20,100 nt of DNA from a virus: positions 1 to 20,100 of the IMG/VR virus record IMGVR_UViG_3300027906_001814; one strand, written 5' to 3'. The notes under the pieces were generated by a model that made no database searches, had not been told where the DNA came from, and saw nothing but the letters and a program-made list of their open reading frames with translations. Below are positions 4,524-19,430 of this stretch, piece by piece. Numbering within the stretch: the stretch's first letter is position 1; each line of letters starts with the position of its first letter. The position numbers were made by a program, and so were the translations under genes.

Positions 4524-4844
4524 ATGGCTGACGCTGCTAGTATAAGAGCTGAACTACAAGAAGGACTTAATGGTAAAACAATAGGTCTTAACGCTACTGT
4601 AAAATTTGATTTTGATGGAACAGGAATTGCTTACCTAGACGATAGCGCTGGGGGAGTAGGTGCTGTTGTTTCTGATGAAGATAAGGATGCTAATTGCACC
4701 TTAACTATGTCAGTAGATACTTGGGAAGAAATGAAAGCTGGATCATTAGATGGTACAAGTGCATTTATGCAAGGCAAATTGAAAGTTGATGGAGATATGT
4801 CTGTTGCTATGAAACTTGGACAAGTATTTGAATCAGTAAAATAA
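4524..4844 (+). CDS. SCP2 sterol-carrier-like domain protein
   Basis: The 106-residue stand-alone protein has the order of features of an SCP2 domain. First comes an N-terminal helix (RAELQEGLNG), then strands around VKFDFDGTGIAYLDD and a DANCTLTMSVDTW strand-to-helix segment. The helix WEEMKAGSLDG, GKLKVDGDMSVAMKL and a final hydrophobic helix follow. The D-x-T-x-x-x-S...W/L...L-x-G...A-x-x-x-G-K-L-x-x-x-G-D signature is typical of the family. SCP2 proteins bind lipids or other hydrophobic ligands in a tunnel. The phage role is unknown. A strong AAGGAG Shine-Dalgarno precedes ATG 4524. It lies in the clamp-loader operon between genes 44 and 62, next to the peroxiredoxin. Confidence 0.75.
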   Translation: MADAASIRAELQEGLNGKTIGLNATVKFDFDGTGIAYLDDSAGGVGAVVSDEDKDANCTLTMSVDTWEEMKAGSLDGTSAFMQGKLKVDGDMSVAMKLGQVFESVK

Positions 4845-4862: not shown

Positions 4863-5366
4863 ATGCAAGATGTGAAACTATTTGACAATAGACTGTTATT
4901 TAAAGACGAGTTGGTAAGTGAAACAGATATGCCCACAATGTTTTCAAACAAGAGAATAGTTATGTTTGGATTACCTGGTGCATTTACACCAACCTGCTCG
5001 GGTAAGCAATTACCTGCATATGAAGATATGTACGAACAGTTTATTGCCACAGATAAAGTGGATGCTGTTTATTGTGTATCAGTAAATGACCACTTTGTAA
5101 TGAATGCTTGGGGCAAAGACTTAGGTATTCAAAAAGTAAAACTAATACCTGATGGTAATGGTGCCTTAACTAGACAGTTGGGAATGTTGGTCGATAAGCC
5201 AGTACAACAATTTGGGTTAAGATCATGGAGATATTCTTCATATGTAGTTAATGGTATTGTAAAGAAGATGTTTATAGAACCTGGCATAAATAATATGAGT
5301 GATGACGAAGATCCATACGAAGAGTCAACACCAGAAAAGATATTAGATTATGTCAAATCCTTATGA
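4863..5366 (+). CDS. Peroxiredoxin, Prx5-type
   Basis: The 167-residue protein carries the Prx active-site box PGAFTPTCS, with the peroxidatic cysteine at C45 and T42 in the conserved Thr position. It also has the Prx5-family segment YCVSVNDHFVMNAWGK (C71) and a conserved arginine in FGLRSWRYS. Prx5-type enzymes reduce hydrogen peroxide and organic hydroperoxides using thiol donors. C71 is not at the usual resolving position, so this may act as a 1-Cys enzyme. It sits between the SCP2-like gene and gp62, overlapping gp62 by 17 nt. The two genes form a cassette inside the replication operon, perhaps against oxidative damage to lipids (inference). Confidence 0.93.
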   Translation: MQDVKLFDNRLLFKDELVSETDMPTMFSNKRIVMFGLPGAFTPTCSGKQLPAYEDMYEQFIATDKVDAVYCVSVNDHFVMNAWGKDLGIQKVKLIPDGNGALTRQLGMLVDKPVQQFGLRSWRYSSYVVNGIVKKMFIEPGINNMSDDEDPYEESTPEKILDYVKSL

Positions 5367-5745: not shown

Positions 5746-6161
5746 GTGAAGAAACACAATGGAGTCCAGAGAGTATGCTCGAGGTCTCCTTGAAAGAACC
5801 AGATGACTTTCTGAAGGTTCGGGAAACACTAACGAGAATAGGTGTCGCATCCAGAAAAGATAAAAAACTATTTCAATCTTGCCATATATTACATAAGCAA
5901 GGTAGATATTTCATAGTACATTTCAAAGAATTATTTGCCCTAGATGGCAAACATAGTAATCTTTCAGAAAACGATATTGAGAGAAGAAATACTATAACAC
6001 AATTACTAGCTGATTGGGGTTTAATTAGTATTATAAATCCAGATAATGCCACAGCGAAAGCGCCATTATCTCAAATAAAAGTTATTTCATTTAAAGATAA
6101 AAACAATTGGACTTTAGAAACGAAATATAATATAGGTAAAAAGATAGATGAAACCAGTTAA
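5742..6161 (+). CDS. regA: RegA translational repressor
   Basis: The 139-residue protein matches T4 RegA (122 aa) very closely. Its core KEPDDFLKVRETLTRIGVAS parallels T4 KKPEDFLKVKETLTRMGIAN, followed by KKLFQSCHILHKQGRYFIVH and a DWGLI...VISFKDKNNWTL region. RegA binds the initiation regions of early phage mRNAs, in T4 including those for gp44 and RegA itself, and blocks ribosome binding. The first 11 residues have no T4 counterpart, and Met12 (codon at 5775) aligns with T4 Met1. I keep ATG 5742 because it has AGGTGG upstream and overlaps the gp62 stop codon. It overlaps the RimK-like gene by 14 nt. Confidence 0.96.
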   Translation: MSEETQWSPESMLEVSLKEPDDFLKVRETLTRIGVASRKDKKLFQSCHILHKQGRYFIVHFKELFALDGKHSNLSENDIERRNTITQLLADWGLISIINPDNATAKAPLSQIKVISFKDKNNWTLETKYNIGKKIDETS

Positions 6162-7551
6162 GTTTAATGAATTTATAACTGAAGATAAGAATAAAGAAGT
6201 AAAGAAATTTAAATTACTTATTATTACAGATGAACCTGAAGAGGCAAAGACATTTCATACTGCTGATAGATTAAGAGAAGAGGCAGATAAAAAAGGTTAC
6301 AAGAATTATCTGTACAAACTATCTGGTGGATATATGACACTAGATGATGGTGTTCGTAGAATACACAATAAAGATGATGAAAAGGGATTTGAAATATCAT
6401 CTAAAGATACTGTAGCAGTTATTCGAGGGTCTATTACTAGAAAAGATTCCTGGTTAGACTTAGTATCACAATTAGAAAAGGCAGGTATCGTATGTGTCAA
6501 TTCCAGACAAACAATCAACACCTGTGCTGATAAGTATAGAACAGCATTAAGACTTGCAGATGTGGGTCTAAGACAGCCTAAAACCGTATTAATATCTGAT
6601 CCTGATAACATTGAAAAAGATTTTGAACAATTAGATACAGATTTCCCAATCATTTTAAAAACACTTAGAGGTTCAAAAGGTGTTGGTGTATTATTTGTTG
6701 AGTCTGAAAAGTCTTTAACAAGTCTAGTACAAGTTTTATATAAACAAGATGAAGATACAGATTTATTATTACAAGAATATATTAAAACTGATTATGACGC
6801 TAGAGTCCATGTTCTCGGTGGTAAAGTAATTGCAGCTATGAAACGAGAAGTTTTAGAGGGTGATTTTAGAAGTAATATATCTCAAGGAGCGAAGGCGAAA
6901 ACTTTAAACCTTACAGATTTAGAAATAGAAAAATGTTTAGAAGCTGCAAAAGCAGTTGGTGGTGTATGGACTGGAGTTGATTTTATACCTTCTAAGAATA
7001 GAGAAAAGGATGAACCATTTTTTATTGAGGTGAATTCATCTGCTGGTACTGAAGGTGTTGAAGAAGCTACAAACAGAAATATATCAAAAGAGATAATAGA
7101 GTTTTTTGAAGATAGAAAAAATTGGATCCATGTTCCTACAGAATGTGGGTTTAAAGAGATTGTAAAAGTAGGCAATACAGAATTTGTTGCTAAGTTTGAT
7201 ACTGGTAATAGTGGTCAAAATGTTATTCATGGAGAAGATATAAATATTCAAGGAAAAAAAGTTAGTTGGAAATTATTAGGTAAAAAATATACAGCTGATT
7301 TAATTAAAATGGACAATATTAAAGTGGGAGGTCTTAGAGATTATGACGAAGATAGACCACTAGTGAAATTAGATGTTGAGTTTGCAGGCACCATCTATAG
7401 CGATACTCTATTTACAATAGATAATAGAGAAGATCGTACACCTATCTTATTAGATAGGAAATTTATGAAACAACTAAATGTTATGGTTAATCCTGCTAGA
7501 AAATACTTATTGACCACACCATTTGAAGTTGATAATAATAAGGAAAAATAA
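6148..7551 (+). CDS. RimK-like ATP-grasp ligase fused to RimK-associated protease-like domain
   Basis: This 467-residue fusion has three parts. Residues 1-12 (MKPVKFNEFITE) form a leader resembling T4 capsid-targeting sequences. Residues of about 18-320 form a RimK-type ATP-grasp ligase, with ATP-binding K171 in ILKTLRGSKGVGV and metal ligands E294 and N296 in FFIEVNSSAG. From about 335 to 460 there is a domain like the RimK-associated ATP-dependent zinc protease (PF05618 type), with a DTGNS motif at 351-355. RimK adds glutamates to ribosomal protein S6, and relatives make other amide bonds. A combined ligase and trimming activity on a translation or host protein is plausible but unproved. 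It lies between regA and gp43, overlapping both regA (14 nt) and the next gene (1 nt). Confidence 0.82.
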   Translation: MKPVKFNEFITEDKNKEVKKFKLLIITDEPEEAKTFHTADRLREEADKKGYKNYLYKLSGGYMTLDDGVRRIHNKDDEKGFEISSKDTVAVIRGSITRKDSWLDLVSQLEKAGIVCVNSRQTINTCADKYRTALRLADVGLRQPKTVLISDPDNIEKDFEQLDTDFPIILKTLRGSKGVGVLFVESEKSLTSLVQVLYKQDEDTDLLLQEYIKTDYDARVHVLGGKVIAAMKREVLEGDFRSNISQGAKAKTLNLTDLEIEKCLEAAKAVGGVWTGVDFIPSKNREKDEPFFIEVNSSAGTEGVEEATNRNISKEIIEFFEDRKNWIHVPTECGFKEIVKVGNTEFVAKFDTGNSGQNVIHGEDINIQGKKVSWKLLGKKYTADLIKMDNIKVGGLRDYDEDRPLVKLDVEFAGTIYSDTLFTIDNREDRTPILLDRKFMKQLNVMVNPARKYLLTTPFEVDNNKEK

Positions 7552-7900: not shown

Positions 7901-10405
7901 ATGAAGTTCTACACATCCGTTATACCACACCGTGGGCGACTTTTGGTTCGTGCCATAGTAAACGGTAAAAGAATTCAAAAAAGAATCAATTATAAACCTT
8001 CCCTTTTCGTACCAGTAAAAAAAGAAACAAAGTATAAGACTCTAGATGGAAGACCGTGTGAGAGAATACAGTTTAATAATACTTACGAATTAAGAGAGTG
8101 GTTAAAACAATATGATGGTGTAACCGGGTTTGAATACTTTGGCAACACTAGACATCAACACGCCTTTATATCAGATGAATTCAAAGGTAATATACAATGG
8201 GATTTATCTAAGCTCAATACAATTACTATTGATATAGAAACTGCTTGTGAGAATGGATTCCCTGATCCAAAAACTGCAATAGAACCTTTAATCTGTATTA
8301 CTGTAAAATCTCATTCCACAAAAGACATTATTGTTTTCGGTATCGGTGAATATAAAAACGATAACGATAAGGTCACATATCTAAACTTTACAACCGAACA
8401 AGAATTACTAGAAGCGTTTATTAAATTCTGGCAAGATTATGATCCAGATATAGTAACCGGTTGGAACTGTAAGTTTTTTGATATGACTTACCTTATCAAT
8501 CGTATTAATTACCTAATGGGTGAGGATCATATTAAAAAATTAAGTCCTTGGGGTATCGTTGAAGCGAAAACTCAAGGTTCTGGTTGGGCAGGTCAATTTG
8601 GTAATGATCTTGCCTATTACGATATTCTTGGTGTATCAACTTTAGACTATCTAGATTTGTATAAGAAATATACTTATTCAAAACAAGAAAGCTATCGTCT
8701 TAACTTTATTGCTGGTGTAGAACTCGGTGAGTATAAAGATGATAACCCTTATGATAGTTTCAAAGAATGGTACACCAAGGACTACCAATCATTCGTAGAT
8801 TATAATATTCAAGATGTGGAGCTGGTTGATAGATTAGAGGATAAGATGAAACTTATCGAATTGCATTTGACTATGGCTTATGAGGCAAAGGTAAACTTTC
8901 AAGAAGTATTCCAACAGGTAACAATGTGGGATGCAATCATATTTAATTTCTTAAAAGCTAAAGGCATAGTTGTTCCTCAAAAAGAAGAACACGAAAACGC
9001 TAGAGGGTATGAAGGTGCATATGTTAAAGACCCTATTGTAGGTTTCCATGATTGGATTGTGAGTTATGATTTAAATAGTCTGTACCCACATTTAATTATG
9101 CAATATAATATTTCACCCGAAACAATTATTGGTTTCCAACCAGAACTTGCAAGTGTAGATAAACTATTAGAATGGCAAGTTGACTTTTCTCAGTTTGATA
9201 AAAGAACTATGACACCAAATGGTGCGATATTTAGAACTGACAAACCTGGGTTCTTGGGTGAATTGATGGAGAAATATTATACAGATAGAAGTAAATATAA
9301 AAAGTTGATGATTACCGAACAAAGAAAATTACAAAAAGATAAAAGTAATAAAGAAATTCAAAATAATATTTCAAAATATAACAATATTCAAATGGCAAGA
9401 AAGATTGCATTGAATAGTGCTTACGGCGCTATTGGTAATAAGTATTGTAGATACTATGATGTAAGACAAGCTGAAGGCATTACCTTTGCAGGTCAATATT
9501 CTATTCGTTATATTCAAAGACGGGTGAATGAGTTTTTTAATAAGTTATTGAAAACTGAAAAGGTAGATTATGTTGTTGCCTCAGATACAGATTCAATTTA
9601 TATTCGTATGGGTGATGTTGTTAAGAAAATGGGTTTAGGTGATGATATTAAAAAGACTGTAAGTATATTAGAAAAGTTTTGCGATCAAAAATTAAAACCT
9701 TACATAGATCAAAAGTATCAAGAGTTAGCTGATTATACACACGCTTATAAACAAAAGATGGTAATGGACAAAGAGGTGATTGCTAATAAAGGTATATGGA
9801 CTGCTAAGAAAAGATATATTCTAAATGTTTATAATGCTGAGGGGGTTGATTATGATGAACCTAAATTAAAGATTATGGGTATTGAAGCAGTTAAATCTTC
9901 CACACCTAAAGCTTGTAGAGAAAAGATTAAAGAAGCATTGACTGTTATTATGACTAAAGATGAAAATGCTTTGATAGATTTTATCGAAGAATTTAGAATA
10001 GAGTTTAATAAATTGCCAGTAGCTGAAGTTGCTCATCCTCGTAGTGTTAATGGTCTTTTAAAATATCAAGATAACACCACAATTTATAAAAAGAGTACTC
10101 CTCGCCATGTAAAGGGTGCCTTGATTTATAATTTAAATTTAAGACAAGATAGTAAATTATTAAATAAATACGAAACTATAAAAGAGGGAGATAAGATTAA
10201 ATTTGTATCATTAAAAACCCCTAATCCATTTAAAGATAATGTTATTTCATTCCCTACAAAACTACCTAAAGAATTTGGATTAGGAGAGTATATTGATTAT
10301 GATGAACAATTTGAAAAGTCGTTTTTAGATCCATTACGATTTATAGTAAGTGCTATAGGATGGAACTTTGAAAGAACAGCGAGTTTAGAAAGTTTCTTTG
10401 GATGA
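7901..10405 (+). CDS. 43: Family B DNA polymerase gp43
   Basis: The 834-residue protein (T4 gp43 has 898) is the replicative polymerase with proofreading. Exonuclease motifs are ExoI DIETA (D111, E113; T4 D112, E114), Exo[11 protein letters not shown] (D194) and Exo[12 protein letters not shown] (D305). Polymerase motif A is YDLNSLYPH (D390), motif B is KIALNSAYG (501-509) and motif C is SDTDSIY (D562, D564). All catalytic acids are present. The C-terminus ASLESFFG resembles T4's SLFDMFDF clamp-binding tail. No in-frame start exists upstream of ATG 7901, which has no Shine-Dalgarno and coincides with the predicted transcription start. The end overlaps the zinc-ribbon-like mini-gene by 4 nt. 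Confidence 0.97.
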
Positions 10406-10485
10406 TTATAACTTGTCGTTATTGTGGATTTAAACATATTAGAAACGGATGGTTCTGTATGAACTGTGGATGGTTTTTTAAATGA
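10402..10485 (+). CDS. 27-residue four-cysteine zinc-ribbon-like protein
   Basis: A short frame starts at the ATG inside the gp43 stop (ATGA, 10402-10405) and ends at a TGA inside the next ATG (ATGA, 10482-10485). It encodes 27 residues with C5xxC8 and C19xxC22, in TCRYCG and FCMNCG, separated by 10 residues. That is a minimal zinc-ribbon or zinc-knuckle pattern with flanking aromatic and basic residues. The two 4-nt overlaps indicate coupled translation between polymerase and ThyX. I do not recognise a family. Nucleic-acid or protein binding is likely if it folds around zinc. Confidence 0.6.
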
Positions 10486-11180
10486 TATTAGGAGAACCAC
10501 AAAAAGTAGAAAGAAGTGATGTTATGAAAGTAGTATTAAGTGAAACTATGGGAACAGATTTAACTGTTGTAAATGCAGCTAGAGTATCCTATGATAGAAT
10601 GTCTGAGGAATTTGGAGACAAAGACGAGAAATTAATTAAATATCTCGCCGAACACAATCATTGGTCACCTTTTGCTCACGCTTTTGCACAATTTAAAATA
10701 GAAGCACCTATCTTTGTTGCTAGACAACTAGTAAAACACCAAGTTGGTCTTGCCTGGAATGAAGTGTCTAGGAGATATGTTTCATATGTTCCTAAAATTT
10801 ATAAGATTTCAAATTGGAGAGGCAAACCCCAACACTCAAAACAAGGGTCTGATGGTAAAGTAGAATTGTCTCCTGAAATGAAATACGAATACGATTTATA
10901 TATGGAACAATGTATAGGGTTATATAATAGAATGATTGAAGAAGGTATAGCGCCTGAACAGGCAAGAGCAGTATTACCTCAATCAATGCAGACTGAATGG
11001 ATATGGAGTGGTAGTTTATATGCATTTGCTAGGATATGTAATCTAAGAAACAAACCAGATGTACAAGAAGAAACCAGATTTATAACCGAGGGAATATCAG
11101 GAATGTTAGAAAACAAATTTCCTATATGTTGGAAGTATCTTTGTCCAGCGACAGGAGTGGACTCAGTAAAGGGTGTGTGA
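10482..11180 (+). CDS. thyX: Flavin-dependent thymidylate synthase ThyX
   Basis: The 232-residue protein makes dTMP from dUMP with FAD, NADPH and methylenetetrahydrofolate. The ThyX signature region is RQLVKHQVGLAWNEVSRRY (about 80-99). Here KHQ replaces the canonical RHR, as in several phage ThyX proteins, while N-E-x-S-x-R-Y is intact. LPQSMQTEW and a C-terminal helix complete the fold. I report ATG 10482 because it overlaps the preceding stop (ATGA). ATG 10524, giving MKVVLSETMGTDLTVV, has AGAAAGAAG upstream and also fits the family N-terminus, so the true start could be either. It supplies dTMP for phage replication. Confidence 0.94.
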   Translation: MILGEPQKVERSDVMKVVLSETMGTDLTVVNAARVSYDRMSEEFGDKDEKLIKYLAEHNHWSPFAHAFAQFKIEAPIFVARQLVKHQVGLAWNEVSRRYVSYVPKIYKISNWRGKPQHSKQGSDGKVELSPEMKYEYDLYMEQCIGLYNRMIEEGIAPEQARAVLPQSMQTEWIWSGSLYAFARICNLRNKPDVQEETRFITEGISGMLENKFPICWKYLCPATGVDSVKGV

Positions 11181-11183
11181 TAT

Positions 11184-11351
11184 ATGAAACTAAGGCTATC
11201 AGATAAAGTACTTACACCTGAAGGAAGAGTAGGTATAATCGTAGCAACTAAAGAAGAAACTAACCAATATGGAGTTGCTTATGGAGAATTCCTTATTGGG
11301 TTGGATTGGTTTAATGAAGATGAATTAAAGCTCTCCGGAGTACCAATATGA
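11184..11351 (+). CDS. 55-aa SH3/KOW-like small protein
   Basis: The frame begins 3 nt after the thyX stop and ends overlapping the next ATG (ATGA, 11348-11351). The 55-residue product reads MKLRLSDKVLTPEGRVGIIV and continues with alternating beta-like stretches (YGEFLIGLDWFNEDELKL). That V-x-T-P-E-G-R-V-G-I-I-V turn is typical of KOW/SH3-like small barrels. No family is certain. The tight spacing on both sides supports it as a real coupled gene. Confidence 0.6.
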   Translation: MKLRLSDKVLTPEGRVGIIVATKEETNQYGVAYGEFLIGLDWFNEDELKLSGVPI

Positions 11352-11893
11352 AAATATTATTAGTATCAGCATTACCAGAAGAAGTAGAAGGTATGCCTTA
11401 TGAGGTTACACTAACAGGTGTAGGTAAGATAAACGCTACTAGGGTGTTAACTGAAAAGATTGTAATGTGGGATGCTAGAAAACCAATGATGCCCGATATC
11501 GTAATTAATTATGGTACAGCTGCTAAGTGTTCTAATAAGGTGCAAGTAGGTGAATTATATGAGATTGGTAGTTTTATGCAAAGAGATATGAATGTGACCC
11601 AATTAGGCTTTGATAAGTACCAAACGCCATACGGTAAAGGAAAAATAGATACTGGTAAAGGAGATTTAGTTTGTGGTACTGGTGATAATTTTTGGGAAGG
11701 CGATCATCAATTTACAGTCGAATGTGATGTTGCAGATATGGAAGCATATGCTTTAGCTTCTGTTTGTGAAACTTATCGTATACCTTTTAGATGTTTTAAA
11801 TATATTTCAGATGATGGTAACCCAGAACAATGGAAAGAAAATTGTAGAAAAGGTGTAGAGTTGTTTATAGCAAGGATGCAATTAACCCAATAA
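11348..11893 (+). CDS. MTA/SAH-nucleosidase-like nucleoside phosphorylase family protein
   Basis: The 181-residue protein belongs to the PNP/UDP phosphorylase superfamily and looks closest to methylthioadenosine/S-adenosylhomocysteine nucleosidase. It has the N-terminal SALPEEVEG segment (E11/E12, compare E. coli MtnN E12), LTGVGKINATRV and the VINYGTAAKC strand. VADMEAYA carries the substrate-binding E132, and FKYISDDGN carries the candidate catalytic D155. It is shorter than E. coli MtnN (232), with the middle reduced. Such an enzyme would cleave MTA or SAH to adenine and a ribosyl product, sparing methylation from product inhibition. The exact nucleoside cannot be told from sequence. It overlaps its neighbours by 4 nt and 1 nt. 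Confidence 0.82.
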   Translation: MKILLVSALPEEVEGMPYEVTLTGVGKINATRVLTEKIVMWDARKPMMPDIVINYGTAAKCSNKVQVGELYEIGSFMQRDMNVTQLGFDKYQTPYGKGKIDTGKGDLVCGTGDNFWEGDHQFTVECDVADMEAYALASVCETYRIPFRCFKYISDDGNPEQWKENCRKGVELFIARMQLTQ

Positions 11894-12993
11894 TGAAGAA
11901 AACCTTAACTAAAAACGAAGCATTATATTGTGCTAACTTATTTAATGAGTATTTTGGTCAATTTACTAGAATTGATGAATATATGCGTAATCAAAAGATG
12001 GCTTCTATTGATAGTATACCGCAATCTTTACCAGGTATGGGACTCGAAACAGAAATGTTTGATGACTTTACAATGTCGCCTCAAGTTATGGACTTACAAG
12101 TTGTAGAATTAGATAACCACACTTGGGATACTAGTATTAATATGATTTCAAGTCATACTAATATGGTCAGTATACCCGGCAAGGCATTGAAACTTGCAGT
12201 AAAGGAAATGAACACAGGCAAGTATGTTGGGTTTATGAGATTTGGTTCGCCTGTAATTAATATGAAACCTAGAAATGAATTACTAGGTAATGTACCAGAT
12301 TTACCTACATTTAATAAAACTGCCATAATGGGATTTGTAATTGTGCCAGCTCAACCATTTGGATTTAATTATCTAGGTGGTAAACTTTTAGCTGCTTTAT
12401 GCTGTTCACACGAAGTTAGAGAAATGTTAAACAAGAAATACGATATGAACTTATGTATGTTTGAAACTACTAGTTTATATGGTAATTCAAAGTCAGCTAG
12501 TCAATATGATGGTATGAAACCAATGTTAAGATATAAGGGATTAACTGATAGTGATTTTATTCCAATGATACACGGGAAAGCATACCACGATCTAGTGGAT
12601 TATGTTGAAGATAGAGTTGGTAAAATTCTTAAAGATAAAGTTTCTAGTCGAAAATTAAAAATGACAAATTCTATTATTGGTTTAATTAAAAGATCAATTA
12701 AAGATAAAGATTTAGAAAATTTTAATGCAACTATAAGTAATGCCAAAAACTTAACTGAACAAAAAAGATATTATGTTTCCAATTATGGTATAGAAAATTA
12801 CATAGATATTGTAAATGGCAAAACAGATAAAATTGTAAAAGCGCCGAACTATGAAAGATATTACGATAATGAACTTATAGAATGGTGGCGTAAACTTGCA
12901 ACCAAAAGATATGATAAACTTCATAATGAAGGCAGATTAAGAACTGAGTTAGAAGTTTGGACTAAAGATAGTGATATAGATATAATCAGGTAA
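11893..12993 (+). CDS. DUF4338/DruA-like domain protein
   Basis: The 366-residue protein has a central region (about 100-220) resembling DUF4338, the family of the Druantia protein DruA. GFMRFGSPVINMKPRNELLG is followed by AIMGFVIVPAQPFG, then LGGKLLAALCC, then a C-M-F-E-T-T-S-L-Y-G segment and an R-Y-K-G-L-T motif. This parallels the DUF4338 order of a recognition strand, an LG-x-x-LL helix and an L-x-E-T strand ending in G-x-T. The C-terminal 130 residues are Lys-rich and unknown. The function is unknown, and a defence role is not implied. It sits between the nucleosidase and uvsX in one operon, with the start overlapping the upstream stop (TAATG). Confidence 0.55.
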   Translation: MKKTLTKNEALYCANLFNEYFGQFTRIDEYMRNQKMASIDSIPQSLPGMGLETEMFDDFTMSPQVMDLQVVELDNHTWDTSINMISSHTNMVSIPGKALKLAVKEMNTGKYVGFMRFGSPVINMKPRNELLGNVPDLPTFNKTAIMGFVIVPAQPFGFNYLGGKLLAALCCSHEVREMLNKKYDMNLCMFETTSLYGNSKSASQYDGMKPMLRYKGLTDSDFIPMIHGKAYHDLVDYVEDRVGKILKDKVSSRKLKMTNSIIGLIKRSIKDKDLENFNATISNAKNLTEQKRYYVSNYGIENYIDIVNGKTDKIVKAPNYERYYDNELIEWWRKLATKRYDKLHNEGRLRTELEVWTKDSDIDIIR

Positions 12994-13054: not shown

Positions 13055-14095
13055 ATGTCAGATTTTTTCAAACAAATTATTAAGGAAACTGGTAATGAAT
13101 ATGCCAGTATAGTATCAGATGGAGTTGAGGCTGGTGATGTCTCCACTTTTATTGATACCGGGAGTTATATATTCAACGGGCTGTTATCAGGAACCATTCA
13201 CGGTGGTCTACCTGCAAATAAGATTACAGCTCTTGCTGGTGAAAGTGCAACAGGTAAAACATTTTTCGTATTAGGTGTAGTTGACAACTTCTTAAAACAA
13301 AATCCAGGCGCTGGCGTGATTTATTTTGAGAGTGAATCTGCATTGACAAAAGATATGATTGAAGAAAGAGGTATTGACTCTTCTCGTATGATTATTATGC
13401 CAGTAACCACAGTACAAGAATTCAGACACCAAGCAATTAGAGTGTTAGACAAATATATTGAGCAAGATGTTTCAGATAGAAAACCTATGTTGCTTGTATT
13501 AGATAGTCTTGGTATGTTATCAACCACAAAAGAGATGGAAGATACCGAGGCAGGAAAAGAAACTAGAGATATGACAAGATCACAAATTGTTAAGGCTGCA
13601 TTTAGAGTTTTAACATTGAAACTTGGCAAGGCTCAAGTACCCCTTATTATTACCAATCACACCTACGATGTCATTGGTTCTATGTTCCCGACTAAAGAAA
13701 TGGGCGGCGGATCTGGTCTCAAATATGCGGCTAGTTCCATCGTCTATCTCTCAAAAAGAAAAGAAAAAGACGGGACAGAAATTATAGGTAATATAATTCA
13801 TTGTAAAAACCACAAGTCAAGATTAACTAAAGAAAATAAAATGGTTGATGTTAGACTTACATATGACAAAGGCTTAGATAAGTATTACGGTTTAGTTGAC
13901 CTTGCGTTGAAACACGGTATATTTAAACAAGTATCTACAAGAATAGAATTACCAGATGGTACTAAACAGTATCAAAAAACAATTAACTCTGATCCAGAGA
14001 AATATTTTACTGAAGAAATCTTAGAACAATTAGACACAGCTGCGGCTAAAGAATTTAAATATGGTATCGAAGAGCAAGAAACAGAGTCTACCTAA
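13055..14095 (+). CDS. uvsX: RecA-like recombinase UvsX
   Basis: The 346-residue RecA/RAD51-family strand-exchange ATPase is shorter than T4 UvsX (391). Walker A is GESATGKT (62-69), Walker B is MLLVLDSLG with D150, and [13 protein letters not shown] followed by a Gly-rich [10 protein letters not shown] is the DNA-binding-loop region. An acidic C-terminus is also typical of UvsX. It forms filaments on single-stranded DNA for recombination-dependent replication and repair. It has its own promoter and a GGAG ribosome binding site. The last 35 nt overlap the following gene. Confidence 0.95.
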
Positions 14096-17628: not shown

Positions 17629-18843
17629 ATGCAAGGGTTTTTACAGTACCTCGTAGAGGCAAAGAACACCCACCTAGAACACTTAGAAGATGAAGTAATT
17701 AATAATGGAAGTCGTGGGGCGGTAAACGCTATACAATTTTTGAAGTCTATAAGACAAATGTTTTCTGGTGGTGGAAAGAGAACGAATTTAACGGTTAAAT
17801 GGGACGGAGCACCGGCAATAGTCTGTGGTACCAATCCTGATAACGGCCGTTTCTTTGTTGGTACGAAATCTGTATTTAACAAAACTCCTAAAATTAACTA
17901 CACGGCTGCAGATATCAGAAAGAATCATTCTGGTGCTGTTGCAGATAAATTAGAAATCTGCTTGAGGGAGTTGCGAAAATTAGGTATCAAAAATATCTTA
18001 CAAGGTGATTTATTATTTACAAGAGGTGAATTAAAGACTGCTAAAATTGACGGTGAAAAGAATATAATTTTTACCCCTAATACTATTACATATGCAGTAC
18101 CTATCGGAACTCCCCTTGCAAGTCGAATCGCAAATGCTAATCTAGGCATTATTTTCCATACAACATATAGAGGCAAAACATTCTCAAAACTAAGCGCTAG
18201 TTTTGGCGCTAGTGTTAAATCATTGAGAAAAGTTAGAAGTGTGTTTTTTGATGACGCTACATATAAGGATGCTAGTGGAGCTAAATTTGATTCAGGTGAG
18301 CAATCTAGGTTTGATAATATATTAAAAATGGCTATGGGTTCAGTAGGTAAGGGTGCTGTTTTTATGGATAAATTAAAAAAAGATACAAACATATTGTCTG
18401 TTGGTGTACAACTAAAGGCATATTTTAATTCATACATAAGAACAGGAACAGGACTAGGCAGTACAAAGAAACTTGCCGGTCAATTTGCTCCGTTTTACAA
18501 AGATAGAATACAACAAGAAATAGATAAAGTAAAACAACCTGCCACAAAAAAGAAATATAAAGATATTCAAAGTGCAGGTGTAAGATTTATAAAAGGCAAT
18601 TCGGAAGGATTATATTTTTGTATTGCTACATATTTGTCCTTACAAAACGCTAAATTATTACTACTAAATAAATTAAGAAGCGTACAAAGTATAGGGACAT
18701 TCCTAAAGACATCAAATGGATTTAGAGTAACCAGTCCTGAAGGATATGTTGCGATTAAATCATCTGGTGCAGTAAAACTTGTAGATAGAATGGAATTTAG
18801 TAGAGCGAATTTCAATATTGCAAAAGACTGGGTAAAGGGTTGA
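17629..18843 (+). CDS. KxDG nucleotidyltransferase (ligase-superfamily)-like protein
   Basis: The 404-residue protein carries NLTVKWDGAPAIVCG, where K57-W-D59-G60 matches the KxDG motif I of DNA/RNA ligases and capping enzymes. Plausible further motifs are ILQGDLLF (126-130) for motif III, LGIIFHTTYRG for motif IIIa/IV, and VQLKAYF with K263 for motif V. The spacing is unusual and no classical EGxVxK is clear. Similar cyanophage proteins exist without assigned function. The first ten residues, MQGFLQYLVE followed by A, resemble a capsid-targeting leader cleaved after L-V-E. The gene heads a late-type operon, with GGAGAAGG as ribosome binding site, and overlaps the adenylate kinase start region. 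Confidence 0.65.
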   Translation: MQGFLQYLVEAKNTHLEHLEDEVINNGSRGAVNAIQFLKSIRQMFSGGGKRTNLTVKWDGAPAIVCGTNPDNGRFFVGTKSVFNKTPKINYTAADIRKNHSGAVADKLEICLRELRKLGIKNILQGDLLFTRGELKTAKIDGEKNIIFTPNTITYAVPIGTPLASRIANANLGIIFHTTYRGKTFSKLSASFGASVKSLRKVRSVFFDDATYKDASGAKFDSGEQSRFDNILKMAMGSVGKGAVFMDKLKKDTNILSVGVQLKAYFNSYIRTGTGLGSTKKLAGQFAPFYKDRIQQEIDKVKQPATKKKYKDIQSAGVRFIKGNSEGLYFCIATYLSLQNAKLLLLNKLRSVQSIGTFLKTSNGFRVTSPEGYVAIKSSGAVKLVDRMEFSRANFNIAKDWVKG

Positions 18844-18848
18844 GATTG

Positions 18849-19430
18849 GTGCCAAAAACATTAAAACAATTTTTAGAAGAAATGAGTATGGTAACTATCG
18901 TAATGATAGGTGGACCAGGGTCAGGTAAATCTACATATTCAAGTTATATCTCAGGTCATTTTGATATACCACATATTTACACAGGTGATATGATGAGGGA
19001 TTTACAGAAAAAAGATCCTGAAGTTGCAAAGATTATGGATAGAGGCGATCTAGTTCCTATTGAAAAAGTAATGAAAGCTTTAAAAGACAGATTAAGAAAA
19101 GACGATACAAATAATGGATATATATTAGACGGGTTTCCTAGAAATATGGAACAGTTGGGTAAAATGAGAGAAGAAGATATTAATTATAATTATGTTGTAT
19201 ATCTTAATGTATCTGAAAAAGAAGTTATTAAAAGACTAACTGCTCGTGGTAGAAAAGATGATAAACCAGAGATTATAAAAAACAGACTAAAAGTATATGA
19301 GAAAGAAACAGGACCTGTTTTAGATGAATTTAGAAAGAATAAGAATAGATTTATTGAAGTTAAAGCTGAAGGAAAAGATCCTGAAAGTATTGCGGCTGAT
19401 ATAATAGGGGAGATAGAAAAGCGTGGCTAA
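18849..19430 (+). CDS. adk: Adenylate kinase with N-terminal leader
   Basis: The short-form adenylate kinase (about 180 residues without the leader) has the P-loop GGPGSGKST, the AMP-binding TGDMMRD segment, LDGFPRN and the lid-region RLTARGRKDDKPE followed by R-L-K-V-Y-E. It interconverts AMP, ADP and ATP, and could balance nucleotide pools or recharge energy in the infected cell. I chose GTG 18849, which gives MPKTLKQFLEE followed by MSMVTIV and has AAAGGG 9 nt upstream. TTG 18840 and 18846 are also possible. ATG 18888, with AGAAGA 7 nt upstream, would remove the leader. The leader ends exactly at L-E-E just before the normal adenylate kinase N-terminus. It overlaps the next gene by 8 nt. 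Confidence 0.85.
   Translation: MPKTLKQFLEEMSMVTIVMIGGPGSGKSTYSSYISGHFDIPHIYTGDMMRDLQKKDPEVAKIMDRGDLVPIEKVMKALKDRLRKDDTNNGYILDGFPRNMEQLGKMREEDINYNYVVYLNVSEKEVIKRLTARGRKDDKPEIIKNRLKVYEKETGPVLDEFRKNKNRFIEVKAEGKDPESIAADIIGEIEKRG

Follow-up and report, generated by a model that had tools for sequence, protein, structure and literature searches.

A phage branch of the DruA family with a predicted GNAT fold, placed among the replication genes of marine T4-like phages

We describe a member of the DruA family (PF14236/DUF4338) that is encoded in a T4-like phage replication block, belongs to a deep phage branch of its family and has a core with a predicted GNAT fold. Its gene lies in a 20.1 kb virus record that covers part of a phage genome; the whole record is referred to below as the window. 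The reading that we favour, and to which we would give somewhat less than an even chance, is that the protein is an enzyme acting on phage DNA during replication and that it likely protects this DNA from host nucleases. Two parts of the picture are already published: DruA-like proteins were detected by structure (Phold) in six Synechococcus phages, with S-PRM1 named (PMC12774648), and DUF4338 has been called a GNAT domain and found fused to DndF of a phosphorothioate restriction system (PMC10853773). In the literature that we searched, mostly that outside subscription journals, no paper joins DruA with Mom, the enzyme by which phage Mu modifies and thereby disguises its DNA, or describes fixed positions in replication modules, and none assigns an activity or a biochemical role to any DruA/DUF4338 protein.

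The window holds the genes of a T4-like replication block: the gp45 sliding clamp, the gp44 and gp62 clamp loaders, RegA, gp43, ThyX, UvsX and a DnaB-type helicase. The part around the DruA-family gene reads as follows.

7901..10405, plus strand: gp43-type DNA polymerase of family B (Pfam DNA_pol_B), upstream of the DruA ORF.
10482..11180, plus strand: ThyX flavin-dependent thymidylate synthase (Pfam Thy1).
11348..11893, plus strand: short protein of the phosphorylase superfamily, 181 aa, with a partial match to Pfam PNP_UDP_1; it overlaps the start of the DruA ORF by 1 base.
11893..12993, plus strand: DruA-family (PF14236/DUF4338) ORF of the window-type phage clade, 366 aa, ATG start.
13055..14095, plus strand: UvsX recombinase (PHROG 97, E 3.8e-92; Pfam RecA).

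The earlier note on this DNA had placed the gene next to uvsX in a core replication region, and the identity of the ORF that follows it agrees with this. The UvsX of the window is closest to that of pelagiphage HTVC008M. None of DruB, DruC, DruD and DruE is present among the scanned genes of the window, which are replication and metabolic genes. We considered the nucleoside-phosphorylase-like gene as a partner of DruA and rejected it; it is a neighbour in none of the 80 closest loci. Unusual company for a replication block is the gene for an SCP2 sterol-carrier domain protein (4524-4844, Pfam E 7e-19), which lies between gp44 and a peroxiredoxin-like gene (4863-5366). The window also encodes a RimK-like ATP-grasp ligase at 6148-7551, with a weak match to Zn_protease PF05618, below the cut-off, further along the same protein, and an adenylate-kinase-like protein (Pfam ADK) at 18840-19430, for which the ORF listing gives a TTG start.

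That the protein is a true relative of DruA is confirmed at the level of sequence. The ORF scores 34.5 bits (E 1.6e-8) with the Pfam model PF14236, whose curated gathering cut-off is 27, and it matches the PADLOC DruA1 model with E 1.4e-8. The Pfam match is limited to residues 92-194, and the whole protein is spanned by PHROG 19197, a family of unknown function (E 1.8e-146). For a longer comparison, made between sequence profiles, a profile of 53 phage relatives was aligned with DruA from plasmids. The reference was DruA (WP_096427128.1) of the Pseudomonas putida plasmid pKF715A, where PADLOC confirms every gene of the Druantia I operon from DruA to DruE. With this DruA, hhalign aligns residues 56-339 of the window protein (99.7%, E 1.8e-25), and with a larger DruA set it aligns 281 columns (99.9%, E 1.1e-32). 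Because these alignments extend well past the Pfam core, the family call is more than a local match and holds over nearly the full length. The earlier note had made its DruA/DUF4338 call by eye and had proposed a profile search against DUF4338; both that search and the comparison with Druantia I DruA bear the call out. The two proteins share the motifs LGGKL, TTS and S.Y. They differ in their surroundings and history, since the window protein has no DruB-DruE in the window, belongs to a separate phage clade and is part of a phage replication module.

The gene is under purifying selection. Compared with its nearest homologue it has dN 0.11 and dS 1.2, the latter near saturation, and pairs of close homologues give dN/dS of about 0.05-0.11.

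Among annotated phages, homologues with 34-52% identity occur in 31 records, nearly all of them Synechococcus phages, with pelagiphages HTVC008M and Mosig in addition. Since 474 records have a UvsX of this kind, the DruA gene is accessory and is carried by, very roughly, one in fifteen of these phages. At that frequency its absence from Prochlorococcus phages (0 of 24) is unsurprising, and we do not claim that they avoid it.

Where the gene does occur, it keeps to one of two positions among replication genes. In the 80 environmental contigs closest to the window, gp43/thyX lies upstream in all 59 readable flanks and uvsX downstream in all 67. In 80 contigs of the Synechococcus-phage type, the upstream neighbour is gp44 (62 of 62 readable flanks) and the downstream neighbour gp62 (76 of 76). 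These figures come from a look-up against a defined reference gene set and leave small intervening genes uncounted. HTVC008M has the arrangement of the window, and S-PRM1, S-SM2, S-T4 and S-SCSM2R have that with gp44 and gp62. The Synechococcus phage proteins reported from Phold are of the same family, and the S-PRM1 homologue is 48% identical to the window protein; that report gives a structural match only (PMC12774648). The window gene lies upstream of uvsX and not between gp44 and gp62. The neighbours of the Mosig-type copies are more varied. HTVC008M has a second, distant copy that is 56% identical to that of Mosig.

In a tree made by a quick method, in which long branches were flagged, all phage sequences form one group (support 97) that divides into a window type (100) and a Mosig type (86). 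Cellular DruA, the long DruA proteins discussed below and transposon-type DUF4338 proteins all fall outside it. Within the phage groups there are also a few contigs classed as bacterial or archaeal MAGs.

An AlphaFold2 model of the window protein (from a 53-sequence alignment; m35bcc223e7b2) has a mean pLDDT of 87 and a pTM of 0.84. It suggests three parts.

11893..12078, plus strand: N-terminal helices, residues 1-62, seen in the secondary structure of the model and outside the GNAT matches, which begin near residue 63.
12079..12558, plus strand: core with a predicted GNAT fold, about residues 63-222 (model pLDDT 87; PDB matches nearly all GNAT).
12559..12990, plus strand: basic, mostly helical C-terminal region of the model, residues 223-366, pI 9.2, part of which also aligns with cellular DruA.

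Foldseek matches this model almost only to GNAT acetyltransferases, with weak E-values (best 1.2e-3). In VIA-align the first rank is taken by Mom of phage Mu (8bv8; Z 10.1, 185 of 222 residues, rmsd 4.2), and the next GNATs follow at Z 9.0-9.5, mostly over 140-170 residues. By the VIA-align rule a gap in Z of less than 1 is a tie, so in fold similarity to the model Mom is level with other GNATs, though aligned over more residues than most of them. A second, independent model, that of a Mosig-type protein in locus L134 (pLDDT 89), again matches nearly only GNAT proteins and has Mom 8bv8 first (Z 10.5, 169 of 202). Taken together, the models indicate that the core of the protein has a GNAT fold. 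A search of the sequences of solved structures returned no match with the phage profile and a single unrelated weak one with DruA. In a library of viral structure models (BFVD), proteins of giant viruses match best, that of Faunusvirus with E 1.8e-17, and Mom of a Salmonella phage comes ninth. The giant-virus proteins among the best matches, from Faunusvirus, Yasminevirus and Dasosvirus (BFVD A0A3G4ZXG3, A0A5K0UAJ3, A0A3G4ZRA1), are uncharacterised.

Within the predicted core two motifs stand out in an alignment of 200 window-type relatives.

12352..12390, plus strand: motif QPFGFNYLGGKLL, residues 154-166, at the position of the GNAT cofactor loop.
12466..12513, plus strand: motif TTSLYG...SQYDG, residues 192-207, on the strand and loop that follow the cofactor loop.

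Of the sixty positions of the protein that are at least 99% conserved in these relatives, many lie close together in the two motifs. They include Q154, P155, F156, G157, N159, G162, G163, K164, L165 and L166 in the first motif, and T192, T193, S194, L195, G197, S203, Y205, D206 and G207 in the second. The LGGKL of the first motif is the part common to cellular DruA. Compared with the canonical acyl-CoA loop (Q/R-x-x-G-x-G/A), the first motif is in the right place and nearly invariant, but its spacing is not a clean fit. Judged by this conservation, the region of the two motifs looks like an active site.

How might the protein be related to Mom? Direct membership of the Mom family is unsupported. 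The Pfam Mom model (PF25680) does not match the window protein, for which DruA is the one family listed at E up to 10, and profile comparison of the phage proteins with Mom directly gives a weak 3-6%. A bridge is provided by transposon-type DUF4338 proteins, which are members of PF14236, some of them annotated as ISAs1 transposases and one of them fused to DDE transposase domains. In profile-profile comparisons they align with the core of the phage clade (97%, E 5e-10) and with Mom (94%, E 8.7e-8, 167 columns). An earlier version of the Mom alignment, with two sequences only, scored 39.1; among 60 column shuffles the highest score was 20.5. One transposon-type protein has a weak Pfam Mom match of its own (E 0.0078), and a Mom profile recovers three more of them (E 5e-5). 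The transposon-type proteins were first located with a DUF4338 fragment as query; the sequences compared are those in the databases. Taken as a whole, the sequence comparisons make a fair case for common ancestry of Mom and the phage DruA proteins.

The transposon-type proteins have counterparts of Mom H58-Y59, N121, S124, F147-x-D149, Y159, A161, N163 and G168, and so retain the Mom-like HY, N..S, FVD/E and YRAANW that the phage branch lacks. Of these residues we take H58, Y59, D149 and Y159 to be important for Mom activity. When the phage proteins are aligned with Mom through the transposon-type ones, HY58-59, S124 and D149 are seen to be replaced in the phage/DruA branch, the alignment near S124 being uncertain by a few residues. 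The Mom in 8bv8 is itself an S124A mutant, which the title of the structure calls inactive. Y159 corresponds to Y205 of the window protein, which pairs with the Y of YRAANW. Because several residues invariant in Mom are lost in the phage/DruA branch, the chemistry of the phage protein may well differ from that of Mom. The window protein further differs from Mom in its extra N- and C-terminal helical parts. In the public record of S-SCSM2R the homologue is named 'methylcarbamoylase mom', the evidence being unstated. Several loci (L309, L310, L326-L330, L335, L340, L343 and L344) encode transposon-type DUF4338 proteins that keep most of the residues conserved in Mom and that Pfam files under DruA.

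What could such a protein do in a replication block? We suggest an enzyme that acts on DNA during replication because active-site-like conservation, a basic C-terminus and a place in the replication block, at either of two sites (gp43/thyX-DruA-uvsX and gp44-DruA-gp62), come together with the other settings of the family. Members of the family are found in DNA conflicts, in the bacterial anti-phage system Druantia, in transposons and in the fusion with DndF (PMC10853773). From family, predicted fold, conservation and location we infer catalysis with a cofactor, DNA as the substrate and protection as the purpose, and the steps might be these. The enzyme would be made together with the replisome and would act during phage replication. 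Residues 154-166 would form the loop that binds a cofactor, probably acyl-CoA or something similar, catalysis would take place at the conserved TTSLYG/SQY region, and nucleic acid would be held by the basic C-terminal part. The mark or alteration placed on the phage's own DNA would shield it from host nucleases in a Mom-like way, though not necessarily by the chemistry of Mom. The earlier note had proposed, as one option, a DNA-binding or processing protein of a kind that the defence system shares, and the near-full-length family match, the predicted GNAT fold and the location fit that idea.

A more far-reaching version, which we regard as speculative and rather unlikely to hold in full, is that a single superfamily of GNATs that act on DNA includes both DruA and Mom as branches. 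The branch in the replisome block of marine T4-like phages would then put an undescribed modification on phage DNA and, by extension, the DruA of Druantia would place or recognise chemical marks on DNA. If correct, this would mean an undescribed DNA modification in ocean viruses. The link with Mom also offers a concrete hypothesis on Druantia type I that can be tested. Cultured cyanophages and a pelagiphage carry the gene, and their DNA can be analysed directly.

Several other explanations can be offered. The protein might have lost GNAT chemistry and assist the replisome or the recombination machinery as a DNA-binding accessory that only holds DNA or a partner. Its fixed place between replisome genes, its basic C-terminal part and the changes at several Mom active-site positions would all suit such a role. 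We nevertheless consider it unlikely, because conservation is concentrated at the GNAT positions for cofactor and substrate; a core part of the replication machinery is argued against by the low share of related phages that have the gene. Alternatively, it might acetylate a protein or a small molecule in the course of host takeover, for instance a host polymerase or nuclease. Its predicted fold would allow this, and a phage GNAT that acetylates host RNA polymerase is known (Rac, PMC7824862). The other settings of the family, with their DNA conflicts, and the sequence bridge to Mom make this suggestion more doubtful than the previous one.

Another proposal is counter-defence, of which the decoy in the earlier note is one form: as a mimic of DruA, the phage protein would poison a DruA-containing host system or act as a decoy for it. 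Full-length similarity to Druantia DruA is what one would expect of a mimic. For the host side we surveyed 297 genomes from the order to which the genome of a phage-like locus, L299 (titled Pelagibacteraceae), belongs. DruE was dropped as a marker of host Druantia after matching 12 of 14 control genomes, and DruB1 was used instead. None of the 297 genomes has DruB1, which the same search detects in the Druantia plasmid. A DruA-family match is present in six: one is the genome of L299, and the other five have a long DruA of about 660-700 residues. The three long-DruA loci that we read have an ORF of 601-633 aa just upstream, which in the one scanned (L356) encodes a GHKL-type ATPase. In small marine genomes this pair looks like a two-gene defence unit.

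The loci lie at 4300-8111 of L356 (plus strand), 6688-10578 of L357 (minus strand) and 6864-10691 of L355 (minus strand), and their DruA proteins have 657-658 aa. That of L356 matches PADLOC DruA1 with E 2e-118, and the ATPase upstream of it has a weak match to MzaB. In L356 and L357 the locus adjoins hisG.

Because a few genomes of the order carry a long DruA beside a GHKL-type ATPase, counter-defence keeps some probability, but we hold it to be small. A host system with DruA is present in few genomes of the one group tested, and nothing here favours counter-defence. The phage branch is deep and stands apart from cellular DruA, which is also why a decoy or a recent capture from a Druantia operon is not our first choice, and strict conservation of what looks like an active site is unexpected of a decoy. 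An enzyme acting on DNA is the more likely of the two. Finally, a defence against competing phages (superinfection exclusion by DruA without DruB-E) would agree with the accessory distribution and with a family known from defence, but is very improbable, given that the conserved neighbours are replication genes only and that the gene appears to sit in a replication block and not at a cargo site.

The phage-type genes also recur as pairs of paralogues that are either directly adjacent or separated by about 1.5 kb. Such pairs are seen in L120 (1454-3994), L137 (5971-8227), L139, L141, L142, L144, L307 (2280-4705) and L308 (927-3475). In L139 the gap between the paralogues is occupied by a gp62-type gene and a kinase-like gene, and two contigs of a Thermoplasmata MAG have tandem DruA pairs too.
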